A stretch of 28,533 nucleotides of DNA from a virus, in IMG/VR virus record IMGVR_UViG_3300030410_000020, positions 1-28,533 of that record; one strand, written 5' to 3'. A program made the position numbers and the translations under genes. The notes beneath the pieces were generated by a model. The model was given only the letters and a program-made list of their open reading frames with translations. It had not been told where the DNA came from and ran no database searches. The stretch's first letter is position 1. Every line of letters starts with the position of its first letter. Positions 1 through 14,783 of the stretch are shown piece after piece.

Positions 1-3000
1 TGCCTATCTTCTCTGCATATTTATCTAAAATAGCATTGATTGGATCTCCACTCTTATTCTTACCTTTATCAATAATTTCTACTGCCATTGATAGGATTCC
101 TTTTTGCTTTGCGTTTCCTTCTTTATTTAAAATATTGCCTGTTTGTTCGAGCCTTCCACTCTTATTTATTACTTTAGCAAAAGCGTTTTTATCAGATACT
201 AAACTTTGTTTCAATTTAGCAATTAGTTTAACTTTATTTATTGCATTACTTCCAAAATTAAAAGTATCTCCAAATAATCCTGTTTGTGCTGTATTATTTT
301 CAGTTAATCCAGAAGCACTCGCTTTTACCATATCAATAAATTCTTTAAGTTCGCTATTTGTTATACCGTTTTCTTTTTGGATATAATCATATATTGCATT
401 TTGGTTAGCTTCATTTAGTTTATTACCCTTAGGTAAAGCTTCACCTATTATAGAACCCTGGGTGTCATCTAGTGTTTTATTAACTATGTGCATCCATAAT
501 CTATCGTTTAATTGTGCTATATGGTAACCTTGCATTACACTTTTATCCGTATTAGAAAGACCTTTGGATTTAATAGTATCTAAGGAATAATTACCATCCC
601 TGAATACTTGTGCTATATCCTTTGGAGAACCTTGATTCTCTGAAATATTCTGTAAGGCTCCTATCTCTCTTGCCATTTTATCAGTTATGCCATCAGATTC
701 TTTTAAAATCTTAGCATCTATTCTACCCACTTTGTTTCTCTTAGCAAGTTCTAACCTATGATGTCCATTAACTACCCATAGTTTATTTGACTTGTCTTGC
801 CATAAAGTTACTGCATTTGATAATTGATTATCCCACTTATCAGTACCTTTTAATTTATTACTTGCCCCCGTTTTAGTATCTGTATTTTCTTTAAATTGGA
901 ATCTTGTTGGATCTGTATTAATTGAACCTACGCCAACTGATTTTACATTTGAAGAATTAACGATATTTTCTGCTTGTTTAATTTCTTCTTTGGTAGGTAG
1001 AACCTCTTTTACTGTTTTAATATCTGTAGGCTGTATTTGCTCTTTAGGTACATTCTCTGTAGGTTTAGGTTGCTCTAGTGTAGGTTTTATAGAAGTTGCC
1101 TGTATACCATTTATAGCCGGAGCAATAGGCTGATTTGGAGTAGGAGATACATTATTTGCCTTAATTATACTATCACCTTGTGTGGCTTGTATATCTGCAT
1201 TTTGAGGAACATTTAACGCTGTAGGAGTATTTACACCTTCTACGTTAGTTTGCTTCTCTGTGGCAATATTAGGCTCATTAGTTTGCCTTATAGCAAGCTC
1301 TGCATCAACTTGTTTAATTTGGTCTTTAGCGACTTCTTGTACTTGTGGTTTCAACTCGCTCATCATAGAATTTAGATTGTCTTTATGTGCAATTAGTTTT
1401 TCATTTGGTACTTGGTCCATAGGAACAACTATTGAATTACCATTTTGGCTAGTATCCATCATACCAGTAACAAATTGGCTTTTAGGTTGTTGAACTATAA
1501 CCTTTGGTTGATCTACTGTCTGTTGTGTTTCAGGTGTTTGCTGTGCATTTTGAATCCTTGCTACATCATTTCTATGACTTTTAGCCAATGCAGTCAATAT
1601 TGCTTTCATAGCAGGATCATCACTTGCTTGTGCTTCTTTATCGAATCCATCTGCTAAATCTAATTTAACCTGTAATTCTGGCGCAATTGTAACTGACTTC
1701 GGTGCCTTTGTTGGTACGATATTTTGCGAAGGAGTCTTTTCTACTGGTGGAATATTAACATCACTTGTAGGAGTTGTCGCCTTATCCTCTACGAAAACAG
1801 TTTTCTTATCATTATTAACCCATATTCCTGAACTTGGTTGAGTTTCCGTATAGCCTTTTTCGTCAAATTGACTTGGCTTTGTTTCGGTGTTTGTTAAAGG
1901 TTTAATTCCTATTTTGCCCTTTCCGTTTAATAAAACAATATCATAATCATTCGCATTGCCAGTATTTCTAACCCACTTATCGCCTTCATTCCCAAAAGGA
2001 GCATAACCAGCCCTACGCAATGTTTCTTGATAGTTACTTTTTAAGTCTGATGATAAATTTAAAGGTACAACTAAATCGTGAACATTTCTATTTTTTACAG
2101 TATTAACAGTTAATTTAACTGCGTCTATGCCATTATTAAACATATCTTGTACTTTTGGGGTGTTATTAGTGATGCCCTGTTTAACAAACCCTAATGCAGC
2201 GCCACTGCCTCCCCATATGTTACCACTTATATACCCTTCTTTAGCTGCGTTAGCCATTTGAGATAAGTCCCCACCTTGAAGCCCAGTTTGGAAGAAGTTT
2301 AAAAGCCCCATTTCTGTACCGACTTTCTGACCACTTGCAACTATTCTTGCAGGCATACTTTTACCCAAATATTTTTCAACTGCGTTATAAACAGGAGTCC
2401 CAGCTTTACTTAATACGTCTCCAACTTTACCAATCTTAGGGATAGGAATACCCATTTCAACAGCAAACTCTGCTGCTTGTGGTACAAACTCAATTCCTTT
2501 TCCAACAATATTTTTAATCCCTGAATCGTTAGCATGAGTATTTTCTATATTTTTTGCAGTGCTACTGTAATAATCACCAGCTTTATTTAGACTGTTAAAA
2601 ATAGGATCATTGCTTTTATCATACCATGGGTTTACTGTTTGGTTAATTTTTTGGGGAATAGTAAGTAACATCTTAGGTAAATCTGAATAAAATGCTTTAT
2701 CTGCCTTTGCTGCGCCTGCTGTTAAATAATCTGCTACAAATTTAAAAGGGTTATTCGAACTTTGCACAGGTGGATGACTACTTGGTGTATCAATAGTAGG
2801 TGCACTAATAGTCGGTGTTCTAACAGTATTAGTTGGTTTAATAATTGGAATCCATGAATCAACAAAAGGAGCCTTTGCGGGTGTATAGACTTTAGCTTTT
2901 GGTGGGCTAACTAAATTTGATAAATTATTATTAACCGGGAAATTTGAAGAATAATCTGGCGCACTTGTAGGCGCACTAGGTGCTGGCTGTTTATTCCAAG

Positions 3001-3085
3001 CCCCTATAAAAGGCTCTGATGGTGCTTTAAAAACTTTAGGTTGATTAGGTTGATTTGTTTTACCACTTAAACTTATCCAAGCCAT
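1..3085 (-). CDS. Giant virion/ejection polyvalent protein with ParB/Srx-like domain (partial)
   Basis: The minus strand is open from an ATG at 3085 (RBS AAAGGAGAG, 6 nt spacing) to the left edge, giving at least 1028 residues without the C-terminus. The first ~150 residues are Pro/Ser/Thr/Asn-rich; a Gly/Ala-rich, weakly amphipathic stretch and a long Gln/Pro/Thr-rich linker follow. Around residue 770 the motif WVVNGHHRLELAKR and the later ARE-GALQNISENQGSP block look like the ParB/sulfiredoxin-type domain of phage polyvalent proteins (DdrB-like). A TGLFGD motif lies about 160 residues further on. In podoviruses, large proteins encoded after the tail genes are usually packaged and ejected with the DNA, so a role inside the infected cell is inferred. 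The gene is 23 nt downstream of a probable ejection protein. The fold assignment is from motif recognition only. The protein could instead be a purely structural internal virion protein. Confidence 0.75.
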   Translation of the reverse strand, partial: MAWISLSGKTNQPNQPKVFKAPSEPFIGAWNKQPAPSAPTSAPDYSSNFPVNNNLSNLVSPPKAKVYTPAKAPFVDSWIPIIKPTNTVRTPTISAPTIDTPSSHPPVQSSNNPFKFVADYLTAGAAKADKAFYSDLPKMLLTIPQKINQTVNPWYDKSNDPIFNSLNKAGDYYSSTAKNIENTHANDSGIKNIVGKGIEFVPQAAEFAVEMGIPIPKIGKVGDVLSKAGTPVYNAVEKYLGKSMPARIVASGQKVGTEMGLLNFFQTGLQGGDLSQMANAAKEGYISGNIWGGSGAALGFVKQGITNNTPKVQDMFNNGIDAVKLTVNTVKNRNVHDLVVPLNLSSDLKSNYQETLRRAGYAPFGNEGDKWVRNTGNANDYDIVLLNGKGKIGIKPLTNTETKPSQFDEKGYTETQPSSGIWVNNDKKTVFVEDKATTPTSDVNIPPVEKTPSQNIVPTKAPKSVTIAPELQVKLDLADGFDKEAQASDDPAMKAILTALAKSHRNDVARIQNAQQTPETQQTVDQPKVIVQQPKSQFVTGMMDTSQNGNSIVVPMDQVPNEKLIAHKDNLNSMMSELKPQVQEVAKDQIKQVDAELAIRQTNEPNIATEKQTNVEGVNTPTALNVPQNADIQATQGDSIIKANNVSPTPNQPIAPAINGIQATSIKPTLEQPKPTENVPKEQIQPTDIKTVKEVLPTKEEIKQAENIVNSSNVKSVGVGSINTDPTRFQFKENTDTKTGASNKLKGTDKWDNQLSNAVTLWQDKSNKLWVVNGHHRLELAKRNKVGRIDAKILKESDGITDKMAREIGALQNISENQGSPKDIAQVFRDGNYSLDTIKSKGLSNTDKSVMQGYHIAQLNDRLWMHIVNKTLDDTQGSIIGEALPKGNKLNEANQNAIYDYIQKENGITNSELKEFIDMVKASASGLTENNTAQTGLFGDTFNFGSNAINKVKLIAKLKQSLVSDKNAFAKVINKSGRLEQTGNILNKEGNAKQKGILSMAVEIIDKGKNKSGDPINAILDKYAEKIG

Positions 3086-3108: not shown

Positions 3109-4290
3109 TTATCTACCATAAAATTGTTGTCCTGGGGTACGATAGAAAGGATCAACCCCCGAAGAACTAGAAGAACTCGAAGAACCTCCATTTGCCATAG
3201 CTGCATTAGTTAAAGCTCCTACAACTCCATCTGCCGTTAATCCGTGAGCGCTTTGGAAAGCCATTACAGCAGCTTTAGTTTGTGGCCCATATGAACCATC
3301 TACTGGAATACCTAAGAAACTTTGTACTTCGGAAACTTGGCTGCTACTTAAACCTCCAGAATTAATAGAAGGTGATTTTGCTTTAGCTTTTGATGATTTT
3401 ACGGCCGCTGCTTGTTGTGTTCTTGCTACTGATGCTCTTGCTGCTGCTGCCGCTGCATTGTTCGCTACTATTTGTTGTGCTTGATTTGCAGCGTATACCT
3501 TATCCCTATAAGCATTATCTACTGCTTGTTGCACTTGATTTGCAGTATATACTTTATCGTTATAAGCGTTTGTCGCTTTAGTATTATTTTCAGTGTCAAG
3601 GATTTGTTTATCTGTTTGAGCCCTTGCATAAGCATTATCGTTTAATTGTTGTGCAAGTGCTGAAATAGCCGAAGTTTGGTCGGTATTTAAAGTATTTATT
3701 TGATTATTTGTATTTGTTTTATTTGTTGCAATTTGGTTATCAACACCTGTTAAAGAATTAGTTCTAGCAGCATTGATACTCGCTAATTGTTTAGTATTAG
3801 CATCATCCATACCCGCAAGCCCACTTGTTAAAATTGTACTTCTTCCAAGTCCTCTGCCTGTTGTAACATTGTCATAGTTATTTTTATTAGATGAGTTTTG
3901 AGTATTTTGGCTTGTAACTTGATTATCAAAGGTTGTATTTATTCCCGATTTTTGATTATTGAGAATTGTATTGTTATTTAAAAGTAAAGCGTTTAAATCA
4001 GATCTTTTTTGATCATATACTGGGTTTGTAGTATTTTGGGCTTGCAGGTTATAATCGTAATTTTTCATAGCGTCATTTGTTGCGGTACTGTCTGCCCCCG
4101 CTAACCTTGTTGCTAAACCTGCATTAACGCTACCTGTTACAGCTGAACCTCCAATTACTAAATCCCCTTTTGCTGCTGTATACTGTCCTGGCTTAGCTCC
4201 TGCCATGTCTACATAATTATACCCATTTGCATTTTTAAGACTTGCCCGTGCATTTGCTAAATCTACTCCACTTGCATATATATTTGGCAT
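3109..4290 (-). CDS. Internal virion/ejection protein with C-terminal peptidoglycan-binding domain
   Basis: 393 residues, ATG with RBS GGAGG 7 nt upstream. Residues ~80-290 are rich in Asn, Gln, Thr and Ala with heptad-like repeats, suggesting long coiled coils. Two near-repeats, AYNDKVYTANQVQQ and AYRDKVYAANQAQQ, lie around 245-275. Residues ~315-365 match PG_binding_1: SSSQVSEVQSFLG, VDGSYGPQTKAAVMAFQSAHG, then TADGVVGALTNAAM. A poly-Ser run and a short Arg/Gln tail end the protein. No catalytic muralytic domain is visible, so it probably anchors to or senses the cell wall rather than cutting it. Its position between the tail genes and the giant polyvalent protein fits a virion ejection protein like P22 gp7/gp20/gp16, which is an inference from gene order. 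Confidence 0.75.
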   Translation of the reverse strand: MPNIYASGVDLANARASLKNANGYNYVDMAGAKPGQYTAAKGDLVIGGSAVTGSVNAGLATRLAGADSTATNDAMKNYDYNLQAQNTTNPVYDQKRSDLNALLLNNNTILNNQKSGINTTFDNQVTSQNTQNSSNKNNYDNVTTGRGLGRSTILTSGLAGMDDANTKQLASINAARTNSLTGVDNQIATNKTNTNNQINTLNTDQTSAISALAQQLNDNAYARAQTDKQILDTENNTKATNAYNDKVYTANQVQQAVDNAYRDKVYAANQAQQIVANNAAAAAARASVARTQQAAAVKSSKAKAKSPSINSGGLSSSQVSEVQSFLGIPVDGSYGPQTKAAVMAFQSAHGLTADGVVGALTNAAMANGGSSSSSSSSGVDPFYRTPGQQFYGR

Positions 4291-12213: not shown

Positions 12214-12484
12214 TCTTTTCACCTTCCTTAATTATTTGTCTTAGTCTTTCGTTACTAAGTTTTATATAACCCTTAGGCGCATCTTTAATATTATCTTTTA
12301 TATATTTAAACAATTCTGAACGCTTCATACTATCTAGCGAAGGCACAGAAGGATTTTCTTCTTTAATTGGGGTATTTGTATTGCCGTTAATTAAAATCTC
12401 TATAAGGTGGCTTAAATCTTCATGTATTGCATATAAGAGTTTCGTTTCTGTTGAGTTTATATTTAATGAATCTTTATCTAACAT
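12206..12484 (-). CDS. Small hypothetical protein
   Basis: 92 residues, ATG with RBS AAAGGAGG. An N-terminal helix (STETKLLYAIHEDLSHLIEI) is followed by a Pro/Asn linker and a basic helical C-terminus (MKRSELFKYIKDNIKDAP, LSNERLRQIIKEGEKNG). This C-terminus could form a small peripheral-subunit-binding or SAP-like fold. It is the first gene after the HNH cassette terminator. Its function is unknown; a head-completion or connector role is only suggested by location. Confidence 0.6.
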   Translation of the reverse strand: MLDKDSLNINSTETKLLYAIHEDLSHLIEILINGNTNTPIKEENPSVPSLDSMKRSELFKYIKDNIKDAPKGYIKLSNERLRQIIKEGEKNG

Positions 12485-12504
12485 AATTACCTCCTTTTGA
12501 TAAT

Positions 12505-12529
12505 GAAAAAAGGATAACCGAAGTTACCC
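12505..12529 (-). terminator. UUCG-loop terminator of the HNH cassette
   Basis: Minus strand GGGTAAC-TTCG-GTTATCC followed by TTTTTT. The stem is 7 bp with one wobble and a stable UUCG loop. The HNH stop codon lies inside the left arm. Confidence 0.8.
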
Positions 12530-13384
12530 TGTAATTTGCAATGCTAATTGCTGTATTCCATTTTTATAGTTTAGATATTTTAGTATTTTATGCTCCCGTT
12601 GTTTGGAATAAAATTTCTGTTGTGGAAACCATACGAAAAAATCTTTATTGCTCTTAGAACTATTGCAACTTAAACATATAGGAATAATATTTGATTTGCT
12701 TACTTCCCCGCCATGAGTTACCGGGATAAAATGTTCAAAAGTTGCTTTTTCCAATAAGCAATTACAATAAGCACAATGTAATTCACCATTTTTATTTTTA
12801 AAATAGTTTTTACAAACTTCCCATTCTTCAACTGTAAAATTGTCAGGTAACAATTTTGTTCTTTCTCTTCGCCTTTGTGCCCTTATTATGCCGTGAAGTT
12901 GAAGTTTTTCAGGGTTATCAATTCCCCATTGTTTGGTTTTTAAAATATTGGCCTTTACATTTTTATAATATCTTTTTATTCTATAGTCATGGATTTTTTC
13001 TTTATGTTCTAACCTGTAGATTTGATTTTTTATTTTTAGTTCTTCTTTATGTTCATTGTTATATTTTTTATCCATTTCAAGTTTATGGATCCTATTCTCT
13101 TCATTGGAATAAAAAACTTTTCTATACTCCTTTTTTCTTTCCGCATACTTAGGATAATTAGCTTTAGACATAGCGTGCATTTCTTCAATTCTATCTTGGT
13201 ATATAGCTTTTCTGCTTGTGCTTACAAGCTCTTTGTTGCCGTCTGTATACTCTTTAGTCTCTAATGTGTGACAATATTTACATACTGGTAATAAACCGTT
13301 TTTGCATCTTTTGTGGTGAGTGAAATATTTATCTGATTCTTCTAAAATTGCACCGCATCTTTTGCATACTTTAATATTTGGCAT
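12524..13384 (-). CDS. Free-standing HNH homing endonuclease
   Basis: 286 residues, ATG with RBS GGCGGAGG 9 nt upstream. The N-terminus has zinc-knuckle cysteines (C7xxC10, C27, C35xxC38), as in many phage HNH proteins. A long basic helical region (~60-175, with RRRRER-like clusters) probably contacts DNA. The nuclease domain is at ~204-250: C204xxC207, FEHFIPVTHGG with H218, N232, C237xxC240, then NSSKSNKDF. This is a complete HNH zinc-bound nuclease. The gene is not inside the capsid intron but starts 145 nt after the end of capsid exon 2. It has its own consensus promoter and terminator. It may cut intron-less capsid genes and promote spread of itself and possibly of the nearby intron. Confidence 0.88.
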   Translation of the reverse strand: MPNIKVCKRCGAILEESDKYFTHHKRCKNGLLPVCKYCHTLETKEYTDGNKELVSTSRKAIYQDRIEEMHAMSKANYPKYAERKKEYRKVFYSNEENRIHKLEMDKKYNNEHKEELKIKNQIYRLEHKEKIHDYRIKRYYKNVKANILKTKQWGIDNPEKLQLHGIIRAQRRRERTKLLPDNFTVEEWEVCKNYFKNKNGELHCAYCNCLLEKATFEHFIPVTHGGEVSKSNIIPICLSCNSSKSNKDFFVWFPQQKFYSKQREHKILKYLNYKNGIQQLALQITG

Positions 13385-13495
13385 AATAAAAATACCTCCG
13401 CCGTATTTTATTTTCCGTTTTATAAAATATAGGAAGTAAAGTTCGGAAAACTCTACTTATCGGTTAAGGTAATTAATCTCAACCTATCCTATATT

Positions 13496-13524
13496 ATTAT
13501 ACTACTAAATTATGGATAGTTCAA
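13496..13524 (-). promoter_or_regulatory. Consensus promoter for the HNH gene
   Basis: On the minus strand TTGAAC (13524-13519), a 17-nt spacer and TATAAT (13501-13496). The -10 matches perfectly and the -35 at 5 of 6. It lies just past the capsid exon 2 stop and would transcribe only the HNH cassette. Downstream, AAATAC and GTATTT can pair around the GGCGGAG RBS (13391-13409), which could limit translation. Confidence 0.75.
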
Positions 13525-13528
13525 CTAT

Positions 13529-13585
13529 CTAAATAATTTTACTAGCAACTAGCCATTTCCAGTCTACAAAACCTAGTGAAAAACG
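13529..13585 (-). CDS. Major capsid protein, exon 2
   Basis: 18 codons plus TAG: RFSLGFVDWKWLVASKII. It restores the conserved C-terminal pattern of gpT-like capsid proteins (F-x-DW-x-W near the end), which exon 1 lacks. The frame is open back to the proposed 3' splice site after the G at 13586. With exon 1 ending in NRSRYT, the junction reads NRSRYT-RFSLGFVDW. An alternative boundary one codon upstream (Tyr-Met inserted) is possible. Confidence 0.8.
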   Translation of the reverse strand, partial: RFSLGFVDWKWLVASKII

Positions 13586-13880
13586 CATATCGTAATGTTA
13601 TCGTTAGGCTATTTATCCTAACTTCTATATGTTTCCATATAGCCCAGACTATATCATACCTTTCGGTAGTGGTACTCGTGGGAATTTCATCATACTTTCG
13701 TTTAGATTACTTTTCCTAGTCGTTGAACCTTCATCCTTTTTTAAGGAAGCTCGGCTGCTGATTTTCCAATCTTATTAATTTTCAAACATTCACACTCACG
13801 ATTGCTCGTCATGTTGTAGTTTAATAAGCTCTAAGGACGTTCCAGCAATTCTCCACTTTTTCATTCATACCTGCCTAACA
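13586..13880 (-). ncRNA. Group I intron in the major capsid gene
   Basis: About 295 nt separate the two capsid exons. On the minus strand the classical core elements appear in order: P (AATTGCTGGA, 13850-13841), Q (AATCAGCAGCC, 13763-13753), R (GTTCAACGACTAGG, 13728-13715) and S (GATATAGTCTGGGC, 13655-13642). The GACTA of R and TAGTC of S form P7. P1 pairs the exon end TTATACT with GGTATGA, placing a U:G pair exactly at the splice site after ACT. P9-type hairpins (TATATGGAAACATATA, GTTAGG...CCTAAC) precede the 3' end. No endonuclease is encoded inside. Splicing removes the in-frame TAG that would otherwise end the protein. Confidence 0.88.
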
Positions 13881-14783
13881 AGTATAACGGCTCCTGTTTG
13901 AAGCATCTATTAACCAATTTTTAGTGTTGTCATCCTTATGTGACGCAATTTCTAGTTTCTTTCTGTCTATCCAGAAAAGGTTGCGTTTCATATAAGCAGA
14001 ATCAATTAAAAAGTACATATTGGGATCCGTGATCCATCTGCTTATAATGACTTGGTATTTGTCTTGGTAAGGGTTAGCTGCGTTGGTATTATCAGTTGGT
14101 TTCTTCTCTGATTGGGTTAATTCCCAGGCTACATTTCTATTAGCCCAGCCAGTTAATATTGTGTCAGGGAAAATATTGGCTTTTTCTCCAATATCGTCTG
14201 TAAGACTTTCCATTAAATCTTCTGCTGCCTTTAGCCCTGCTTGGGTTAAGGGATTGTTAGTAAGGTAATTGCCTTGAACTGCTGCCTTACCTGTCTTAGA
14301 AGGATGAGCAACGCTTGCTAAAGGCATTTTGTCGTTGCCTAAACAATCAAAAGTTCCACCAGCCATCGAGAATGTAGGTACTGTACAAAAATTAAAAGGA
14401 GCATGAACAAATTTCTCTCTAGTTCTATTAGAGGCATCTGTTAATGTTCCCGCCTGATTTTGCATATCAATAATCCTAGAGTCATCTATGGTTTCTCTTT
14501 TTATTTCAATACCTTTCTTGAAGACTGTGTGCATAAATTGCTTTGGCCACATTTCTTCCATGTCGTCATAAGGTACCGCTCCATCTGTTGCGACAAAATC
14601 ACCTATTCCATTCATTCCTGCAACTGATTCTGAATAATGGTTTGAACTCTTTACGTTATATAAAGTATTTAAAAGTGAGTTCTTTGCAAAGTCACTTTCT
14701 GATTTAGACATATAAGCCATTATTGGGCCTTCATTTCTCCCAATAGCAGCATCAATCTTTCCTACTGTACTTGTTATAATCAT
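13881..14783 (-). CDS. Major capsid protein, exon 1 (gpT-like)
   Basis: 301 codons from the ATG at 14783 (RBS GGAGG 7 nt upstream). It carries the features of the Mu gpT-like HK97-fold capsid group: KRETIDDSRIIDMQ, FNFCTVPTFSMAGG, the DCLGNDKMPLASVAHPSKTG loop, LTQAGLKAAEDLMESLTDD, INIFPDTIL-type strand (ANIFPDTILTGWANRNVAWE), and NPYQDKYQVIISRWITDPN. Without splicing, translation would stop three codons into the intron after NRSRY. The spliced protein is 319 residues. It follows the decoration-like gene by 12 nt and belongs to the scaffold-decoration-capsid block. It builds the icosahedral shell. Confidence 0.9.

Follow-up and report, generated by a model that had tools for sequence, protein, structure and literature searches.

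A Group I Intron near the 3' End of a Mu-gpT-Like Phage Major Capsid Gene and Its Best-Supported Splice Junction

Phage capsid genes with group I introns are already known. In the mycobacteriophage LittleE, an intron of the major capsid gene has been demonstrated by RT-PCR together with sequencing of the virion protein (PMC3706429), and the lactococcal phage Tuc2009 also has a group I intron in its capsid subunit gene, as cited in the same paper. Another late gene, the tape-measure gene of Lactobacillus phage JCL1032 (EU409559), is described in a citation of Riipinen and Alatossava (2004) within PMC6669764 as containing a group I intron; that intron has no ORF. A clade of gut phages is reported to carry on average 18.5 group I introns per genome (PMC12363816).

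The locus presented here lies in a stretch of 28,533 nucleotides that we call the window (positions 1 to 28,533 of IMG/VR record IMGVR_UViG_3300030410_000020). Its intron resembles that of LittleE, which is most likely of group I too, in residing within a phage major capsid gene, with a U before it and, as we place its sites, a G at its end. It differs in size and content, since the LittleE intron has about 820 bp and an endonuclease ORF whereas that of the window has 310 nt and no ORF, and also in location: the LittleE junction lies just past the N-terminal processing site, while the present one lies near the C-terminus of a Mu-gpT-like capsid protein. With the intron of JCL1032 it shares sequence similarity in the 3' part, the same P9, P9.1 and GAUAACA tail, and a P1 followed by a P2 hairpin, but the host gene is another and the 5' half is dissimilar at the DNA level. 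Its core is similar in DNA to the introns of Staphylococcus Twort-like phages, Yersinia phiR1-37 and Listeria LPJP1, whose P7 strand is GUUCAACGACUA or close to it and whose P9 is similar; these introns lie in other host genes, and some have an endonuclease ORF inside or next to them. In bajarodcaudo virus 2 (PQ006093, hereafter L023; region 667-1850), a group I-like segment lies directly past the annotated major capsid protein, and an in-frame continuation, MLAIRAVMRIGWEVPNP, follows; its capsid sequence is different, the score of 48.5 bits is just under the Rfam cut-off and the segment is not annotated as an intron, but this is probably one more capsid gene whose intron, close to the end, has gone unrecognised. 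As a separate observation, the region 1402-1901 of MW202615 contains a group I match of 67.2 bits, which stops about 60 bases upstream of where the major capsid gene is annotated, and a second, weaker match at 1402-1531.

The interrupted capsid gene and its intron-less relatives

The gene is divided as follows, the boundaries being those of the junction preferred below:

13901..14783, minus strand: exon 1 of the major capsid gene, comprising codons 1-294 and one further base, the first of a Tyr codon
13591..13900, minus strand: predicted group I intron of 310 nt without an ORF of its own, recognised from RF00028, blastn similarity to phage introns and the profile-ranked junction
13529..13590, minus strand: exon 2, AT ATG CGT TTT TCA ... 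ATT TAG, which completes the Tyr codon and continues with MRFSLGFVDWKWLVASKII and the stop codon

In the ORF list of the window, the capsid ORF (14783-13875, minus strand, 302 aa) ends prematurely after ...WLIDASNRSRYTC, and a downstream tail, RFSLGFVDWKWLVASKII, is encoded on the same minus strand with its stop codon at 13531-13529. Profile hits of the ORF are PHROG 371 (major head protein, E 2.9e-12) and the Pfam family PF10124, Mu-like_gpT (29.8 bits); the genes for the large terminase and the portal precede it, in the usual order. The structure predicted for one intron-less relative has a mean pLDDT of just 52, residues 1-121 being of low confidence. In the PDB it best matches phage capsids, including those of SU10, JBD30 and Mu, the match to Mu and JBD30 extending over ~80 residues; most of the top matches among viral proteins are models of phage capsids. 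The interrupted gene (13529-14783, minus strand) is a Mu-gpT-like major capsid gene. Elsewhere in the window, positions 3112-4290 encode a predicted protein with the peptidoglycan-binding domain PF01471 (50.6 bits) and a match to DUF7934.

How does this protein end in phages that lack the intron? Pattern, profile and tblastn searches gathered 11 contigs with an uninterrupted homologue, several of them near copies; these searches found no relative closer than about 59% identity, the closer ones having 52-59% identity to the exon 1 protein. The capsids of the close relatives are 312-315 aa long, and all have at their C-terminus W-x-I-K-[AG]-Y-x-R-x-[SA]-[LI]-G-F, of which two distant relatives show a divergent form. 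Exon 2 matches the C-terminus of all 11, and the NRSRYTC-type ending of the window's ORF is found in none, each having Y-x-R-x-x-x-G-F or its divergent equivalent. This comparison, which the original prediction had named as one that might refute it, therefore speaks in its favour. Because the relatives continue with the sequence that is encoded downstream in the window, that downstream piece represents the true C-terminus.

Identity and structure of the intron

That a group I intron interrupts the major capsid gene near its 3' end, as originally predicted, is established at the level of sequence by the covariation of helices P4-P9 and by a match to RF00028, the Rfam check that had been proposed. 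The match, obtained in a focused scan with permissive filters, spans 13890-13625 on the minus strand and the full model (1-253) with E 5.9e-12, and its 50.7 bits barely exceed the curated cut-off of 50 bits; a repeat search of the segment matched again, with E 6.8e-14. The first Rfam scan, of the whole window with default filters at the gathering threshold, returned no match, which we ascribe to a filter effect because laxer filters found RF00028 at the focused segment. An Rfam match to rhtB, with 21.6 bits against a cut-off of 55, was dismissed as chance.

A blastn search with a loose limit detects similar DNA in 820 phage records, with best E-values of 3e-28 for a Listeria phage and about 1e-22 for Bacillus and Staphylococcus phages; several of the matched segments sit inside split genes, and the similarity extends to the introns of Twort-like phages. 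Exact DNA patterns from the 3' part of the intron had no match among viral contigs, and neither RF00028 nor HNH searches gave a match in the records of five relatives, most of which are fragments. Two of the phages that have related introns deserve a remark of their own. In a huge-phage ribonucleotide reductase gene (L014, LR756504, 1189-1760), a related group I intron comes within a few codons after an intein-like C-terminus (...LVHN). In Listeria phage LPJP1 (L015), the segment 1460-3003 combines a split gene, interrupted by a related group I core, with an adjacent ORF; close by, at 2811-3003, is a group II D1D4-5 match of 94.1 bits.

The principal helices are these:

13890..13904, minus strand: P1, 13904-13900 GCUUC with 13894-13890 GGAGC, loop AAACA, including the wobble U13901-G13893
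13866..13886, minus strand: P2 hairpin, UAUACUUGU-UAG-GCAGGUAUG, which Rfam puts in the first helix
13668..13857, minus strand: P3, 13857-13853 AGUGG with 13672-13668 CCACU, from the Rfam alignment
13755..13848, minus strand: P4, 13848-13843 UUGCUG with 13760-13755 CAGCAG, P5 and P5a lying in between
13647..13721, minus strand: P7, the guanosine site, 13721-13717 GACUA with 13651-13647 UAGUC
13625..13642, minus strand: P9, CUAUAUG-GAAA-CAUAUAG, with a compensatory change in five of six tested pairs
13591..13622, minus strand: P9.1, GUUAGG...CCUAAC (13622-13603), a hairpin in the fold, then GAUAACAUUAC and the terminal G13591

The P7 pairing, already read as GACTA with TAGTC in the original prediction, stands, and it forms in all eight aligned introns, with one compensatory change. 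P8 is present but very short, and 44 nt (13716-13673) are inserted between the 5' strand of P7 and the 3' strand of P3, the place of P7.1/P7.2 in subgroup IA. P2 is a nine-pair helix lying three bases past P1 and about eight ahead of P3, as in the Rfam layout, and its loop is the TAG (13877-13875) that closes the unspliced reading frame. The covariation test covered eight aligned phage introns and helices P4, P5, P5a, P6, P6a, P7 and P9. Across these, 90% of cells are paired, a percentage that favours the window since the structure was drawn on its sequence, and 16 of 33 pairs have changes on both sides; the covariation score, which this choice favours less, is 0.396 against 0.135 after shuffling (reached in 0 of 500) and at most 0.13 with partners slid. 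Compensatory changes thus preserve helices P4-P9 across related phage introns, and the element looks like an ordinary, intact intron.

The splice junction and competing explanations

We ranked 475 in-silico U|G junctions, in a space of ~100 by 90 bases, against a protein profile built from the intron-less relatives only. The top rank belongs to T13901|A13590 with 436.5 bits, followed by a runner-up with 426.1; the originally predicted junction, 5' T13881 with 3' G13586, has 425.4 and the unspliced product 405.9. The product of T13901|A13590 has 314 aa and no gap at the junction (WLIDA-YMRFSLGF, to be compared with WQIKG-YMRYSIGF in the intron-less relative L003), the insertion falling in phase 1 of the Tyr codon, 20 codons ahead of the capsid end. 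In DNA letters, ...GATGCTT would be joined to ATATGCGTTT, and the junction peptide would be NWLIDAYMR.

The layout of the 3' tail was compared with that of introns whose splice sites derive from exon homology; the ends in L014 and L019 are set by ribonucleotide reductase KRKGSFAVYLEPWH and by tape measure RAGTGL, respectively. The distance from P9.1 to the terminal G13591 is the same in the window as in the related introns of L014, L017, L019 and L023. Past P9.1, the window reads GAUAACA-N4-G; L014 also has N4, L019 and L023 have N5, and L017 has GUAACA-N5-G. Aligned with the window's GAUAACAUUAC-G13591, the tails are GAUAACAAACUG in L014, GAUAACAUUUUUG in L019, GAUAACAAAAUUG in L023 and GUAACAUAACUG in L017. 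A P1 of GCUUC-AAACA-GGAGC, with U13901-G13893 at the splice site, is present in the minimum-energy fold. Tail layout and P1 fold both stand outside the profile ranking, and both agree with T13901|A13590. This is the best-supported junction, with an intron at 13900-13591 and SNRSRYTC as intronic sequence, and the originally predicted sites are very probably wrong. The NRSRY that had been taken for the end of the first exon would then belong to the intron, and the hairpin formerly called P1 (13886-13866) is most likely P2. The original prediction was right that a 3' site at G13591 calls for a shifted 5' site, which is T13901 with a P1 of its own; its preference for G13586 does not survive the tail layout and the profile. 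The 5' sites T13886, T13880 and T13877, combined with G13591, were rejected for extra residues and a poor P1.

From the sequence, the structural family, the covariation and the protein homology we infer both the splicing of the RNA and its exact sites, and consider it highly probable that the 310-nt intron 13900-13591 splices out at T13901|A13590 to give a capsid of 314 aa. By analogy with the intron family, the transcript would fold into a ribozyme in which U13901 is held in P1 through its wobble pair with G13893 at the 5' site, and a guanosine bound in P7 would attack the bond after U13901. The freed exon 1 would then attack the bond after the terminal G13591, so that the exons join inside the Tyr codon and encode the 314-aa capsid ending in ...NWLIDAYMRFSLGFVDWKWLVASKII. 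On unspliced RNA, ribosomes would halt at the TAG of the P2 loop, giving a capsid without its last 20 residues and with eight foreign ones. In the T4 td intron, splicing is reported to be reduced when translation runs into the intron core (PMC2988022); here the TAG in the P2 loop would keep ribosomes out of the catalytic core, which may or may not matter for splicing. A capsid ending in ...DASNRSRYTC, or one containing DASNRSRYTRFSLGF, would be at odds with the proposed sites.

The same intron might instead be spliced at the originally predicted sites (P1 UAUACU/GGUAUG), joining ...TATACT to CGTTTT and giving a 319-aa capsid with SNRSR ahead of YTRFSLGF. That P1 is the longer one, with six exon pairs and a U-G wobble at T13881 against only four exon pairs in ours; the join is in frame and restores the conserved Y-x-R, and the introns of L014 and L015 seem to have P1 right before P3, without P2. 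We nevertheless rejected T13881 with G13586 on the protein profile, the tail layout and the fold, and regard it as very unlikely: its product has five residues that are absent from all relatives, it scores 11 bits below the best junction, G13586 lies five bases past the end point of related introns, and a join of T13881 to the better 3' site, G13591, would break the reading frame. The notion that splicing sets the amount of capsid, also part of the original prediction, is compatible with T13901|A13590; regulated splicing could limit or time the capsid supply or make both 302-aa and 314-aa forms. The insertion does split a structural gene, translation of its unspliced RNA would yield a protein of nearly full length, and the td intron offers a parallel for regulation (PMC2988022). 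Yet a segment that all relatives conserve is missing from the 302-aa form, and intron-less relatives make the capsid protein anyway. Because efficient splicing has been reported for introns in the capsid and tail genes of cluster J mycobacteriophages (PMC3706429), efficient splicing would be the simpler expectation here too, and we hold regulation to be unlikely.

A dead intron or a misassembled contig, with the 302-aa protein serving as capsid or the phage being defective, might be suspected from an Rfam score that scarcely passes its cut-off and from a single record with no second copy; but all core helices are intact, and so is exon 2, in frame and with conserved sequence, when decay would be expected to strike exon 2 or the core, making this reading highly improbable. 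Two coding pieces on one strand could also be bridged by translational bypassing, as in T4 gene 60, without RNA splicing. The gene 60 hop covers roughly 50 nt and would be far exceeded by one of ~310 nt; the gap here is, moreover, filled by a complete group I ribozyme, and we give bypassing hardly any credence.

The neighbouring HNH gene and the meaning of the finding

Exon 2 is followed, 144 bp past the capsid stop, by this gene:

12524-13384, minus strand: free-standing HNH endonuclease gene, 286 aa, with Pfam HNH (35.5 bits) and matches to PHROG endonuclease VII / HNH families

Its product shares 31% identity across 169 aa with an HNH-like protein of the relative L005, whose gene comes directly after a capsid gene without intron. 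In L006, which has the same capsid C-terminus as L005, no HNH-like gene stands at that place. The capsid neighbourhoods of L005 (2286-3371) and L006 are similar, so that the free-standing endonuclease shows a presence/absence polymorphism. At 12484-13529 the window seems to lack the gene found after the capsid gene in L002, L003, L006 and L007; the HNH gene takes up its place.

In collaborative homing, free-standing endonucleases share their target site with an intron without an ORF (PMC3984707, PMC2988022). The ORF-less intron and the adjacent HNH gene might form such a pair, targeting the conserved Y-x-R-x-S-L-G-F site of this capsid family, a tentative suggestion that we deem rather doubtful.

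The finding adds another capsid family to those known to have group I introns, with exact and testable splice sites, while leaving the knowledge of such introns and of phage biology unchanged. Automatic annotation would truncate this capsid: its last 20 residues would be missing, replaced by eight incorrect ones. If the homing pair were real, the phage group may display different stages in the assembly of a mobile capsid intron, because a related HNH-like gene sits beside the intron-less capsid gene of L005.
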